Positions 464 to 16,391 of a stretch of 34,977 bases of DNA are shown here, piece after piece. The notes under the pieces were generated by a model. The model was given only the letters and a program-made list of their open reading frames with translations, was not told the origin of the DNA and did not search any database. Position 1 is the first letter of the stretch; each line of letters begins with the position of its first letter. The translations under genes and the position numbers were made by a program. This DNA comes from Bdellovibrio sp. (GTDB taxonomy: Bacteria; Bdellovibrionota; Bacteriovoracia; Bacteriovoracales; Bacteriovoracaceae): the NCBI GenBank assembly GCA_022729855.1, contig DZBG01000016.1:1-34977 (forward strand), given 5' to 3'.

Positions 464-1243
464 ATGAGCTATGTTTTAGAAAACTTAGGTGAGTCTGAAA
501 GATTGGAGGCCCAAGAAAAAATTGAGTCTTATAATATTCGGCAAGATATCTCAGCAATGTCTTTCAATGATGGTGAGCTTCTCTTAGATGCTGGTTGTGG
601 GAGTGGACTCATCTCTAGGCTAATACAAGATGAATACCCTAATTTAAAAGTGGAAGCTTGTGACTCAAGTCCTGAGCGCATCATACAGGCCAAGGAACGA
701 TCTCTTGATTATAATATTTCCTACTATGTGAGTGGTTTAGAAAAAATTGATCGACCATCGAATACATACAACAAAATTATTTGCCGTTTTGTTTTTGAAT
801 ATCTTCCTGATCCACAAATTGTCGCAAATGAACTCTACCGTATTTGTAAATCTGGAGGACAGGTTTGTTTAATTGATATCGACGGACTTCTTTTTAATCT
901 CGTCACGGCCAATACTGAATTACAGTCGTATTTAAAAAAATTAGAGATCGAATTTTACCGAGATCATCATTTGGACCTTTTTGCAGGCAGAAAGCTCTAC
1001 TCTTTTTTAATGAAAGCTGGCTTTAGTAAAATTAATTACACAGTAAGGACAATGAAGTTTAATGAACACGACCTGAAGCTTGAAAAAGAAAACTATATTC
1101 AGAGATTTAATTTTGCGAACAAACTTTTCGAAAGTGTTTTAGGAGAAAAATCTGAAAGATTTAAACAACTCTATCTCGCAGAACTAGAAAATCCTAACAA
1201 TATCATTTTCTACAATAACTTTATTGTGGTTGGAGAAAAATAG
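464..1243 (+). CDS. Class I SAM-dependent methyltransferase
   Basis: The protein (259 residues from ATG 464) has a Rossmann-type methyltransferase domain. Motif I is LLLDAGCGSGLIS at about residues 39-51; the acidic end of strand 2 is VEACDSSPERI; motif IV is the IICRFVFEYLPDP segment. It should transfer a methyl group from S-adenosylmethionine to an unidentified small molecule, in the cytoplasm. I chose ATG 464 because GGAGGA lies 3 bases upstream. An in-frame ATG at 440 adds eight residues but has no ribosome binding site. The C-terminal third does not match a substrate-binding domain I can name. The last 60 bases overlap the convergent hydrolase gene. The fold is sure; the substrate is unknown. 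Confidence 0.85.
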   Translation: MSYVLENLGESERLEAQEKIESYNIRQDISAMSFNDGELLLDAGCGSGLISRLIQDEYPNLKVEACDSSPERIIQAKERSLDYNISYYVSGLEKIDRPSNTYNKIICRFVFEYLPDPQIVANELYRICKSGGQVCLIDIDGLLFNLVTANTELQSYLKKLEIEFYRDHHLDLFAGRKLYSFLMKAGFSKINYTVRTMKFNEHDLKLEKENYIQRFNFANKLFESVLGEKSERFKQLYLAELENPNNIIFYNNFIVVGEK

Positions 1244-2059
1244 CTCTCCCTGATCTTGAATATACTGGAGAAGAATTTGATTAAATTCTTCGGGGTGATC
1301 CATATAACAAAAGTGAGATCCTATTAATCTATGAGAAGATCCTTCCCACAAATTTTGTATTGTGAGGTTGTGAAAATGATCAGCATTAATAAAGCGATCC
1401 TCAGATGCACAAACAACTGCCACAGGAAAAGGAGCTTGCTCAATGGCCTTAACTTCATCTGCAAAATTCAGTTGTCCGATTGAAGCCCCTAGGGAAGGCC
1501 GAGCATCAGTAGAAGTTTTTCCTACAATCTTAACCATCGTATTCAACTCGTCTTTCCACTCACCAAAACATTGTGAAACAAACTCAATCGCCTCTTCTTC
1601 AGTTAAAGTTGGTGCGTAAAGATAAGCTCCAGCTGGATTCGGCAAAAAAGCGCCTACTTCCTTGATCGGATTTGAAAGTGGCGGAGTCCCCCAAACAAAC
1701 ACTCCTGAGATTTTTTCAAGCTTCTGAGCTAGGAGTTCAAGAGCAATATGACCACCAAGACTATGGCCAGCAATGACTAGATTTGATAGCTCAAGCTCTT
1801 TAATAAACTCAGCAATGAGTTTTGCATATTGAGGAAGATGATATCCAAAAGGATTAAGTAAGCTTTCAGAATCTCCGTGACCGTAAAGATCTAAAGCAAT
1901 TAAACGATAGCCTTCAAAGAGTGAAGAATTAAACTGTTCAGAAAATGTTTCAGATGAAAATGAATTACCGTGAATGAATAAAATAGTCCCAAGTTCAGCT
2001 TCACCTTTTTCAAGGTATGAAATATTGGCGGTGAGGATTTTAATACTTTTCTTATTCAT
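1184..2059 (-). CDS. Alpha/beta-fold hydrolase
   Basis: This 291-residue protein has the standard alpha/beta hydrolase layout. The oxyanion region is FIHGNSF (residues 28-34), the nucleophile elbow is AGHSLGG with Ser100, the likely acid is in SEDRF (about Asp220), and the catalytic histidine is His249 in SHFCYMDHPEEF. It probably hydrolyses an ester or related bond in a small molecule; family members cannot be separated by motif alone. No signal peptide is seen. ATG 2059 has AAAGG 7 bases upstream. About 19 C-terminal residues extend past the usual domain end, and their codons are antisense to the last codons of the methyltransferase. A candidate promoter lies directly upstream. Confidence 0.85.
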   Translation of the reverse strand: MNKKSIKILTANISYLEKGEAELGTILFIHGNSFSSETFSEQFNSSLFEGYRLIALDLYGHGDSESLLNPFGYHLPQYAKLIAEFIKELELSNLVIAGHSLGGHIALELLAQKLEKISGVFVWGTPPLSNPIKEVGAFLPNPAGAYLYAPTLTEEEAIEFVSQCFGEWKDELNTMVKIVGKTSTDARPSLGASIGQLNFADEVKAIEQAPFPVAVVCASEDRFINADHFHNLTIQNLWEGSSHRLIGSHFCYMDHPEEFNQILLQYIQDQGELFFSNHNKVIVENDIVRIF

Positions 2060-14433: not shown

Positions 14434-14739
14434 ATGCTTAATTTCTTTAAAAAATCTAAGTCTCAAGATCAAATCAATAAACACACAACTGATGTCGTTG
14501 ATCACTTGTACAATCGCCTTGATATGCGTTTTCGTGAGGTTGAATCTCAGATTAGAGAACTTGAATTGGGTCTTCAGCAATTAGAAACAAAGCTTCTTGT
14601 GAAAGACATTAATGATAAACAAAACTACGGCCAGCTTCACTACAAACTGCATGAAGTGAAAAATCAAAAATTAGAAGATGAGGCCAAGTCTCTTCAATCA
14701 GAACTTAAGAAAAAACTGATTAAAGAAACTGATCACTAA
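14434..14739 (+). CDS. Small coiled-coil protein, unknown
   Basis: The 101-residue protein is highly charged and predicted to be almost wholly helical. From residue 20 to 98 it has heptad-like spacing of Leu/Ile/Val (LYNRLDMRFREVESQIRELE and onward), consistent with a coiled coil. No membrane helix or signal is present. ATG 14434 has AGAGG seven bases upstream, which supports this frame over the shorter overlapping one that starts at 14396. The stop shares four bases with the stop of the convergent beta-barrel gene. Function unknown; it could be a structural or adaptor protein. Confidence 0.7.
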   Translation: MLNFFKKSKSQDQINKHTTDVVDHLYNRLDMRFREVESQIRELELGLQQLETKLLVKDINDKQNYGQLHYKLHEVKNQKLEDEAKSLQSELKKKLIKETDH

Positions 14740-15371
14740 TTAAAATAATAAATAATCTGCCCTGTGAACTGTTGAAAACTTCCTCCAAGAGGTTCAGAAA
14801 CAGGAGCATCACTGTCCCACTCTTCGTCGTTACTCCAACCACGTGCCTCATAAAGAAATCTAAAATCAAGAAAGCGAAAAAGCGGTAAAACAATACCTGC
14901 TTGGATAATGGCCCCCGTATAATCACTCTCTCCTTTTACTATATAAATATCAGTTGGATCGCTGAGGCTAGAAAATCTAAAATCGTGCTTTCCAGATACT
15001 TTGCTATATCCAAGCCCTAGAGTGAAAAATCTCCAAAAATAATATTTAAGAATAATATCGAATGAATTGGCCTTGAGTTCTGCTTTATCAATCCTTATTT
15101 GTGGCGCACCAAAAATGGGGTTGGCCACTCCTGGTTCAGAAGCTAAATCAAATTTTGAGTACCCGAGCTCCAGTCCCCAGCTCACCCATCGATAGCCAAG
15201 AACAGCACCATAGGCCGGCCCTGTCAGCATTTCGCTTCCTGTACCACTATCTGCAACAGTGGAATATCCCCCACCGATATAGAGGCCATAATCACTGCTT
15301 GAACTATCTTTTTTTTGAGAAAAACCGGTTAGTGGAAAAATGAAAAGAAAAAATAAAACAAAAAACTTCAT
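14736..15371 (-). CDS. Outer-membrane beta-barrel protein
   Basis: The 211-residue protein has a signal peptide (KFFVLFFLFIFPLTGFSQ) followed by alternating strands such as YGLYIGGGYSTV, AYGAVLGYRW, WGLELGYSKFD, FDIILKYYFWRFFTLGLGYS and a final strand FTGQIIYYFN rich in aromatics. This is the pattern of an eight-stranded outer-membrane barrel of the OmpW/OmpA-like 'porin family' kind. Most such barrels end in Phe; here a last Asn follows. The gene starts at ATG 15371, and its AAGG ribosome binding site lies inside one arm of the palindrome at 15381-15417. It converges with the coiled-coil gene and ends within its stop. Substrate or role unknown. Confidence 0.8.
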   Translation of the reverse strand: MKFFVLFFLFIFPLTGFSQKKDSSSSDYGLYIGGGYSTVADSGTGSEMLTGPAYGAVLGYRWVSWGLELGYSKFDLASEPGVANPIFGAPQIRIDKAELKANSFDIILKYYFWRFFTLGLGYSKVSGKHDFRFSSLSDPTDIYIVKGESDYTGAIIQAGIVLPLFRFLDFRFLYEARGWSNDEEWDSDAPVSEPLGGSFQQFTGQIIYYFN

Positions 15372-15380
15372 CCTGAAGTA

Positions 15381-15417
15381 CCTTGGTTAATAATAATTAA
15401 TATTTTATTATCCAAGG
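15381..15417 (-). promoter_or_regulatory. 37-base palindrome over the ribosome binding site of the beta-barrel gene
   Basis: Arms CCTTGG (15381-15386) and CCAAGG (15412-15417) are continued inward by TAATAA/TTATTA (388-393 and 405-410 of this kilobase) with one mismatch, making an almost complete dyad centred near 15399. On the minus strand the start-proximal CCAAGG arm contains AAGG, eight bases before the ATG. It could be an RNA hairpin that hides the ribosome binding site, or a DNA operator; a -10-like GATAAT overlaps the far arm. Confidence 0.55.
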
Positions 15418-15449
15418 ATCACAAAAAATATCGACACAATTTTTCTTAA

Positions 15450-16337
15450 TTAATTACAGCTATAAAATCCCATCTCTTCAACTATAGTCTTCGCTCCAAT
15501 ATATGAGTCTAGGTCCCACACACGTGGCTCACTCCAATCAGAGTCAAGAACAAGAAGCTTTCTGCGACCTTTGGCCACAAAAGCTGCTGCGGCGGCTATT
15601 GAGTGTCCTCCGGCATTTTTTTGAGATTTTGTACGAGGAATCCAAAGTCGAGGGTCCATAAGTTTTTTGGTTTCATAATCTTGAAGCTCATAACTTGATG
15701 TCACCATATCAGGTCCAAGATTAAAATCAACGATCACAGGTTTTCCGTCTTTTGCTTTTTGAAAAACAAAATCAGCTGCTTTTTTAGGATCAGTAAAATG
15801 AGAAGACTTACATTTAAAACCAAATCTTTTTCCATATGAAGTCATGATTGAGTTCGTAGTCCCTCGGCGATCTAAATAGTATCTTCCAAGAGATTCTTCC
15901 AGTAGTTTCAGTCTTTCTCTCTCATCACTCATCATATGATCAAATTCGGCTGTGCCTTTATAATCTGCCCAATACATTTGTTGCCAGAAGTGGATGAAAG
16001 AATAAGCGGCACAAGTTCCACCAAACTGATCCATGGGTCTCAAGATGGCCTGAGCTTTACTCTTACCAGACTTCATTTCGATGTTTTTATAATCGATCAA
16101 ATAGACTCTTGTCTTTTGCTCATCTAAAAATAAAAAATCTTCAGCAGTTCCATCTTGATGAACCATCCGCCCAAGAAAAGTCATCTCCTGCTTCTTACCC
16201 GCGAATTGAAGATACATCTTTGAGCCAATGGCCAAAGCTCCTTTTGCCGTCTTCAATGTTTCGAGAGGGGTGACCACAATTTTCTGGGCCCAGACTGAGT
16301 ATGAAAAAAGAAGAGTAAAAAATAGGAGTAGTTTCAT
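15450..16337 (-). CDS. Exported papain-like cysteine peptidase candidate
   Basis: From ATG 16337 the protein has 295 residues and a clean signal peptide (KLLLFFTLLFSYSVWA). A papain-type active site can be traced: Gln104 and Cys109 in MDQFGGTCAAYSF, His245 in NAGGHSIAAAA, and Asp265 in LVLDSDW where papain has Asn. Order and spacing fit a papain-fold or C39-like peptidase, but the N-terminal domain (about 20-95) is not familiar. If active it would cut peptides in the periplasm or outside the cell, which would suit a predator. A longer version starting with TTG at 16361 is unlikely because that codon lies in the terminator T-tract. The assignment by motif alone is moderate. Confidence 0.65.
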   Translation of the reverse strand: MKLLLFFTLLFSYSVWAQKIVVTPLETLKTAKGALAIGSKMYLQFAGKKQEMTFLGRMVHQDGTAEDFLFLDEQKTRVYLIDYKNIEMKSGKSKAQAILRPMDQFGGTCAAYSFIHFWQQMYWADYKGTAEFDHMMSDERERLKLLEESLGRYYLDRRGTTNSIMTSYGKRFGFKCKSSHFTDPKKAADFVFQKAKDGKPVIVDFNLGPDMVTSSYELQDYETKKLMDPRLWIPRTKSQKNAGGHSIAAAAAFVAKGRRKLLVLDSDWSEPRVWDLDSYIGAKTIVEEMGFYSCN

Positions 16338-16360
16338 AGAGTGATTACTACCTTTACCCA

Positions 16361-16391
16361 AATAAAAAAGGGATGGTTTTTACCATCCCTC
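16361..16391 (-). terminator. Rho-independent terminator downstream of rimO
   Basis: Stem AGGGATGG (16369-16376) pairs with CCATCCCT (16383-16390) around a six-base loop. Read on the minus strand the stem is followed by a run of T (opposite 16363-16368 and further A-rich bases). It lies about 26 bases after the rimO stop and ends that transcript before the peptidase gene. Confidence 0.9.

Follow-up and report, generated by a model that had tools for sequence, protein, structure and literature searches.

Introduction

The transposase leaders of IS10 and IS50 block read-through translation; they carry an inverted repeat with the Shine-Dalgarno sequence (SD) in its near arm, and the gene's own transcript starts inside the repeat. 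Another precedent is gene e of phage T4, where a helix covers the SD on the long early transcripts and the late transcripts, free of the 5' strand of that helix, are translated well, as the cited accounts outline it (PMC3014915, PMC2988022). A hidden SD may also serve another end, and an RNA thermometer is described for an outer-membrane protein gene, Yersinia ompA, in the account at hand (PMC8245352).

Here, we analyzed a locus on the minus strand of a 34,977-nt stretch of a Bdellovibrio sp. genome (hereafter the window), where the SD of a gene that we call P0001 lies in an inverted repeat. As in the IS10 and IS50 leaders, the SD is in the near arm and the gene's own transcript may start inside the repeat, but the neighbors of P0001 include no transposase and no second copy of the hairpin was found in its own genome. 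With the T4 leaders of e, soc, 49, and I-TevI, to the extent that the cited accounts describe them, the locus shares an SD placed in a helix on upstream-derived transcripts (at P0001, putative run-on transcripts), a far arm lying over a promoter-like box, and the lack of a terminator T-run at the site; it differs in lying on a bacterial chromosome, with a weak candidate promoter and no phage late promoter, and in that its run-on and native start are both putative (PMC3014915, PMC2988022).

The locus and its two genes

The features of the locus are as follows.

14736..15371 (-): P0001, gene of an orphan protein (211 aa) that, by reading of the sequence, has a signal peptide and a C-terminus of barrel-like character
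15381..15384 (-): AAGG, the most plausible P0001 SD, in the near arm (whose end is CCAAGG), nine bases upstream of the ATG (15371-15369)
15381..15417 (-): inverted repeat, predicted RNA hairpin over the P0001 SD; predicted energy at 37 C, -10.0 kcal/mol
15405..15417 (-): far (5') arm, anti-SD; begins CCTTGGATAATAA
15407..15412 (-): GATAAT, weak candidate -10 box in the far arm; 9/12 promoter match, TCGATA-16-GATAAT
15450..16361 (-): P0002, 303 aa, co-directional gene 78 nt upstream of P0001
16367..16392 (-): terminator-like hairpin with T-run, 3' of the UPF0004/radical-SAM/TRAM gene that precedes P0002

P0001 is likely to encode an outer-membrane barrel protein. The initial annotation had called it an outer-membrane protein outright, and while its signal peptide and barrel-like appearance agree with this, family matches all fall below cut-off: OMP_b-brl (PF13505) at E 0.0054 and 17.4 bits against a cut-off of 28.7, and the AcfA family NF033908 weakly, at 21 bits against 100. 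The best hits of a PDB sequence search had E values of only 0.18 and 0.21, and single-sequence structure prediction gave a mean pLDDT of 34.9. P0002, which by reading of its sequence has a signal peptide and more likely starts at the ATG at 16337, shows a weak, below-cut-off match to BtrH_N. On the other side of P0001, a small open reading frame with no confident family (window 14434-14739, plus strand) is convergent with it and overlaps its gene end by 4 nt.

P0001 had no homologue but itself among 59 genomes or among 368 genomes of the phylum, and none was confirmed in genome_contigs or viral_contigs by scans that detect close relatives only; P0002, used as a second anchor in genome_contigs, gave none either. 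In genome G024, where no homologue of P0001 was found, another gene comes 2 nt after a P0002 homologue. When the gap between the two genes was compared by BLAST with the 59 genomes, 50 had at least one match at E ≤ 1; the strongest from another genome (L011, E 1.0e-4) shows no such dyad by eye.

A predicted hairpin covers the P0001 ribosome binding site

The initial annotation placed a 37-base palindrome at 15381-15417, with AAGG in the start-proximal arm. We confirmed a dyad there with AAGG in that arm: the 13-nt arms (15381-15393 and 15405-15417) are complementary at 12 of 13 positions (92%). It is an imperfect inverted repeat spanning the whole interval rather than a perfect palindrome, with an A.A mismatch and an 11-nt middle. 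Read as minus-strand RNA, the order is CCUUGG, the A.A mismatch, UAAUAA, the loop, UUAUUA, A, and CCAAGG, and the predicted stem has an outer helix of 6 bp with four G-C pairs, the A.A mismatch, and six A-U pairs. In leaders 100 to 300 nt long, more than 99% of the P0001 SD is predicted to be paired at 37 C, which would place it in a local helix as in a block of the T4 gene e type. The hairpin lies 32 nt from the P0002 stop, and with this spacing a ribosome ending on P0002 is not expected, on geometry, to melt it. The dyad does not have the form of an intrinsic terminator, as there is no T-run and the sequence after the near arm is TACTTCAGG.

We then compared the dyad with chance. The 78-nt gap was shuffled 3000 times with its dinucleotide composition preserved; any 12/13 dyad was present in 14 of the shuffles, and one with at least four G-C pairs in none. 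Opening the SD of the P0001 leader costs 6.6 kcal/mol, a value that 0 of 100 shuffles reached when the SD and the start were fixed and the upstream part alone was shuffled; the uniform run described below, with up to 340 shuffles, gave a weaker p of 0.009. The whole 110-nt leader folds moderately better than its shuffles (z -1.94, with 8 of 200 as good), and among 185 genes P0001 ranks 16th by SD opening energy and 9th by accessibility. Equally strong dyads form 30 clusters, many of which resemble terminators, in our first genome sample outside the window (284 kb), and one inside it. A 12/13 dyad with its 3' arm over the SD zone was found in three of 280 leaders, of which the P0001 leader alone has a scored SD. 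What is unusual is the position of the dyad on the SD, not its strength as such.

A chance structure in an A/T-rich gap would account for strong pairing that is limited to the outer 6 bp, for a 12/13 dyad of some kind turning up in shuffles, for a rank of 16th among 185 by opening energy, and for a p no lower than 0.009 within a search over 635 leaders. It does not account for the absence of G-C-rich dyads from 3000 shuffles, nor for a setting in which hairpins of this class are in excess (see below), and we regard it as improbable. The claim that a hairpin hides the SD in RNA is backed by the folding prediction and the shuffle statistics, and we consider the dyad over the P0001 ribosome binding site real and, as modeled, probably functional as RNA.

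The hairpin is not predicted to melt with temperature

One function proposed for the hairpin at the outset was that of an RNA thermometer for a surface protein. When we folded the leader at 12 temperatures from 5 to 60 C, the predicted unpaired fraction of the SD stayed between 0.000 and 0.020, with 0.004 at 37 C. With the SD at least 98% paired throughout, melting in the living range is not expected and the thermometer is not supported. The locus resembles outer-membrane protein thermometers such as that of Yersinia ompA, which make this function a known one for such proteins, in having its SD paired in the leader, and differs, as far as the cited account describes ompA, in a hairpin that by prediction stays folded at up to 60 C (PMC8245352). 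The outer stem, a perfect 6 bp with four G-C pairs, and an unpaired fraction of merely 0.02 even at 60 C make a thermometer highly improbable. A search of the window against Rfam returned no family at gathering score and only one match, at chance level.

Promoter evidence and the operator reading

The other function proposed at the outset was that GATAAT is the -10 element of the P0001 promoter, making the dyad a DNA operator. The box does lie in the far arm (15412-15407); as a -10 element it is no better than chance, since one 9/12 match was found in a 501-base region where 1.2 are expected. On a promoter weight matrix, the GATAAT site scores 5.1 and a site at -87, the best promoter-like site of P0001, scores 7.6. 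The latter is upstream of the whole hairpin, and a transcript from it would contain both arms and leave the SD hidden; the promoter evidence at P0001 thus speaks rather against a start inside the hairpin, as far as sequence can indicate.

An operator overlapping the promoter would agree with the center of the dyad (15399), which is near the start expected from GATAAT. Besides the chance-level promoter match, two things make it very unlikely: 37 bp is long for a DNA operator, and no second such architecture was found in this genome, either by gap BLAST or by the one pattern tried (CCTTGG-N20-30-CCAAGG), which occurs in three places, the other two with unrelated interiors. By the same pattern search and gap BLAST, which revealed no second copy of the hairpin, we rejected a dispersed repeat element. 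The promoter and hairpin readings can be combined if the far arm holds a promoter and the hairpin forms in the RNA of longer transcripts.

The site at -87 would suit a regulated translational switch, in which the hairpin sits on the main transcript and is opened by a factor acting in trans (a protein or an sRNA) or by processing; the near-complete pairing predicted for the SD in leaders of different lengths would suit it too. Such a switch is nonetheless rather unlikely, since no Rfam family matched, the hairpin sequences vary between genes, and their scarcity at divergent genes, documented below, is not what it predicts.

SD-hiding hairpins form a class in the genome

Because clear SD-hiding hairpins turned up at other genes in the ranking by opening energy, we compared the SD opening of each leader with that of shuffles of its own upstream sequence. 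Three samples of the genome, covering about 40% of it, provided 635 SD starts, called by a simple open reading frame rule after exclusion of leaders whose SD was shorter than 4 nt or that lay too close to the end of a stretch. At p ≤ 0.01, we found 7 of 185, 5 of 159, and, in the third sample, 9 of 291 leaders, i.e., 21 of 635 when pooled against 6.4 expected; at p ≤ 0.003, there were 10 of 635 against 1.9. The same pipeline at p ≤ 0.01 yielded 7/227 in the related genome G004, 2/190 in G041 from another family, and 2/137 in E. coli.

By reading of the proteins, the class members include eno, gltX-like, guaB, tyrS, lepA, glmS-like, thyA-like, and a TonB-receptor-like gene, and the hairpin sequences differ from gene to gene. 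Of 34 class members, 9 have a T-run (at least 5 T of 8) downstream of the SD, as do 54 of 270 other leaders; a first rough count, with a test window that began inside the stem for several leaders, had given 3/27 and 18/184. Since T-runs are not enriched, ordinary intrinsic terminators do not account for the class as a whole. In three members (L022, L024, and L134) the stem is followed by a strong T-run, and these stems could be terminators doubling as SD cover.

Within the window, the leader of an alpha/beta-hydrolase gene (1184-2059, minus strand) has a second strong SD-hiding hairpin at 2059, with an SD opening of 8.3 kcal/mol (0 of 100 shuffles) and a co-directional gene 80 nt upstream.

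The class is concentrated behind co-directional genes

We next sorted the leaders by genomic context, 40 of the 635 having no called neighbor. Where the upstream gene is co-directional and at least 45 nt away, 28 of 160 leaders had SD-hiding hairpins at p ≤ 0.05; the numbers were 6 of 165 for divergent leaders and 8 of 270 for those with a gap under 45 nt. As controls, pseudo-SDs gave 20/330 in coding sequence (330 of 482 candidates used) and 10/123 between genes. The co-directional class differs from divergent leaders (Fisher 2.9e-5), from coding pseudo-SDs (1.0e-4), and from intergenic pseudo-SDs (0.016). The extreme tail of the coding control is not empty, with 6/330 at p ≤ 0.003.

With p ≤ 0.03 and gaps of 45-300 nt, samples 1 and 2 together had 14 co-directional and 0 divergent class members against 80 and 70 other leaders (P 2.6e-4). 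These cut-offs were fixed before the fresh third sample, which by itself gave 8 and 4 against 50 and 70 (P 0.088); when all three are pooled, the numbers are 22 and 4 against 130 and 140 (Fisher 2.5e-4). The co-directional-to-divergent ratio has the same lean, not significant, in G004 (6/2 versus 44/36) and G041 (3/1 versus 46/40); the single E. coli case is divergent. In the sampled 40% or so of the genome, SD-hiding hairpins are concentrated behind co-directional genes.

This bias is predicted as well if the hairpin belongs to the 3' end of the upstream message, protecting or ending the P0002 mRNA without a U-tract and overlapping the next SD for want of space. The intergenic pseudo-SD control, somewhat raised at p ≤ 0.01 (5/123), and the three class members with T-runs point the same way. 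Conversely, the P0001 dyad has no T-run and the class is not enriched in them, and true SDs in co-directional gaps are more often hidden (28/160) than intergenic pseudo-SDs (10/123). We judge a 3'-end role unlikely, though worth weighing.

Leaders of class genes in relatives

Four genes chosen for a hairpin in their own copy were tested in relatives, with the own copies excluded from the counts. Among the matches listed, p ≤ 0.01 was reached by 3 of 19 leaders of eno, 3 of 25 of guaB, 0 of 22 of tyrS, and 0 of 10 of lepA, which amounts to 6 of 76 against about 0.8 expected (Poisson 1.4e-4, at a 1% rate and with relatedness ignored). The matches dropped were 10/30 for eno (7 without the motif, 3 without an SD), 4/30 for guaB, 7/30 for tyrS, and 19/30 for lepA. 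Among those listed, some eno and guaB leaders of relatives have SD hairpins of different sequence; the guaB leaders L173 (own genome) and L174 (G024) both have long SD hairpins, with changed arm sequences. The hairpin is absent in most of the relatives tested among the matches listed, which indicates either fast turnover or that they do not need it.

A proposed insulator against read-through

We propose that the dyad is an RNA insulator against read-through from the upstream gene, like that of T4 gene e, a reading to which we give a probability of about 0.4. No site of terminator-like form with a T-run was found in the gap between P0002 and P0001, which makes run-on transcription into P0001 plausible. 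Run-on transcripts from P0002 would contain both arms and, if they fold in the cell as predicted, would hide AAGG, so that P0001 would not be translated from them. Translation of P0001 would depend on a shorter transcript that begins in the far arm or immediately beyond it and so lacks the anti-SD strand. A block of read-through explains why hairpins are found behind co-directional and not divergent genes.

Such a start inside the hairpin can be gauged across the class. A first test placed the promoter start inside the hairpin in 13 of 21 members against 7.7 expected. Once the null was improved and every sample included, it was 16 of 38 against 12.6 (P 0.14), sample 3 having 4 against 4.0; counting only promoters that score at least 6, it was 12 of 20 against 6.9 (P 0.01). 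Alignment of promoters on the far arm had P 0.05 pooled, 0.10 in the own genome, 0.58 in sample 3, and 0.25 in other genomes. For the class, support for a native start within the hairpin is therefore weak, and for this reason insulation comes first at no more than the probability given above, with the 3'-end role second and the regulated switch third.

The position of the hairpins, mostly behind genes of the same direction, suggests that they stop translation of accidental run-on messages. A broader and more tentative reading, which we hold to be possible though doubtful, is that in this genome, and probably in related genera, SD-hiding intergenic hairpins are general translational insulators. 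Among genes that follow a co-directional neighbor across a real gap, about one in eight (28/160 less 8 by chance), including eno, guaB, and the gltX-like gene, would be silenced on run-on transcripts and translated from their own transcripts only, each with a hairpin of its own sequence and with geometry alone under selection. Leaders that part run-on from native transcripts by hiding the SD are already known from phage genes; within the literature searches made, no title dealt with such a pattern in bacteria. Chromosome-wide use behind co-directional genes, if true, would mean that genes transcribed together need not be translated together, that operon maps from RNA-seq overstate protein output, and that bacteria with compact genomes have a second barrier besides terminators.

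Other recurring hairpins

Two further families of hairpins were seen in the genome. A full or partial palindrome with AGGTGCCAGCTACCTTT-like arms recurs between genes, at L026:13989-14030 and within the L160 6231 (+) and L141 10590 (-) leaders, and looks like a dispersed REP-type repeat. Near-identical terminator-like hairpins (AAAAAAAGCCTCCGCAAGGAGGCTTTTTTT) are present at L031:8101-8130, L031:19804-19833, and L039:5604-5633.
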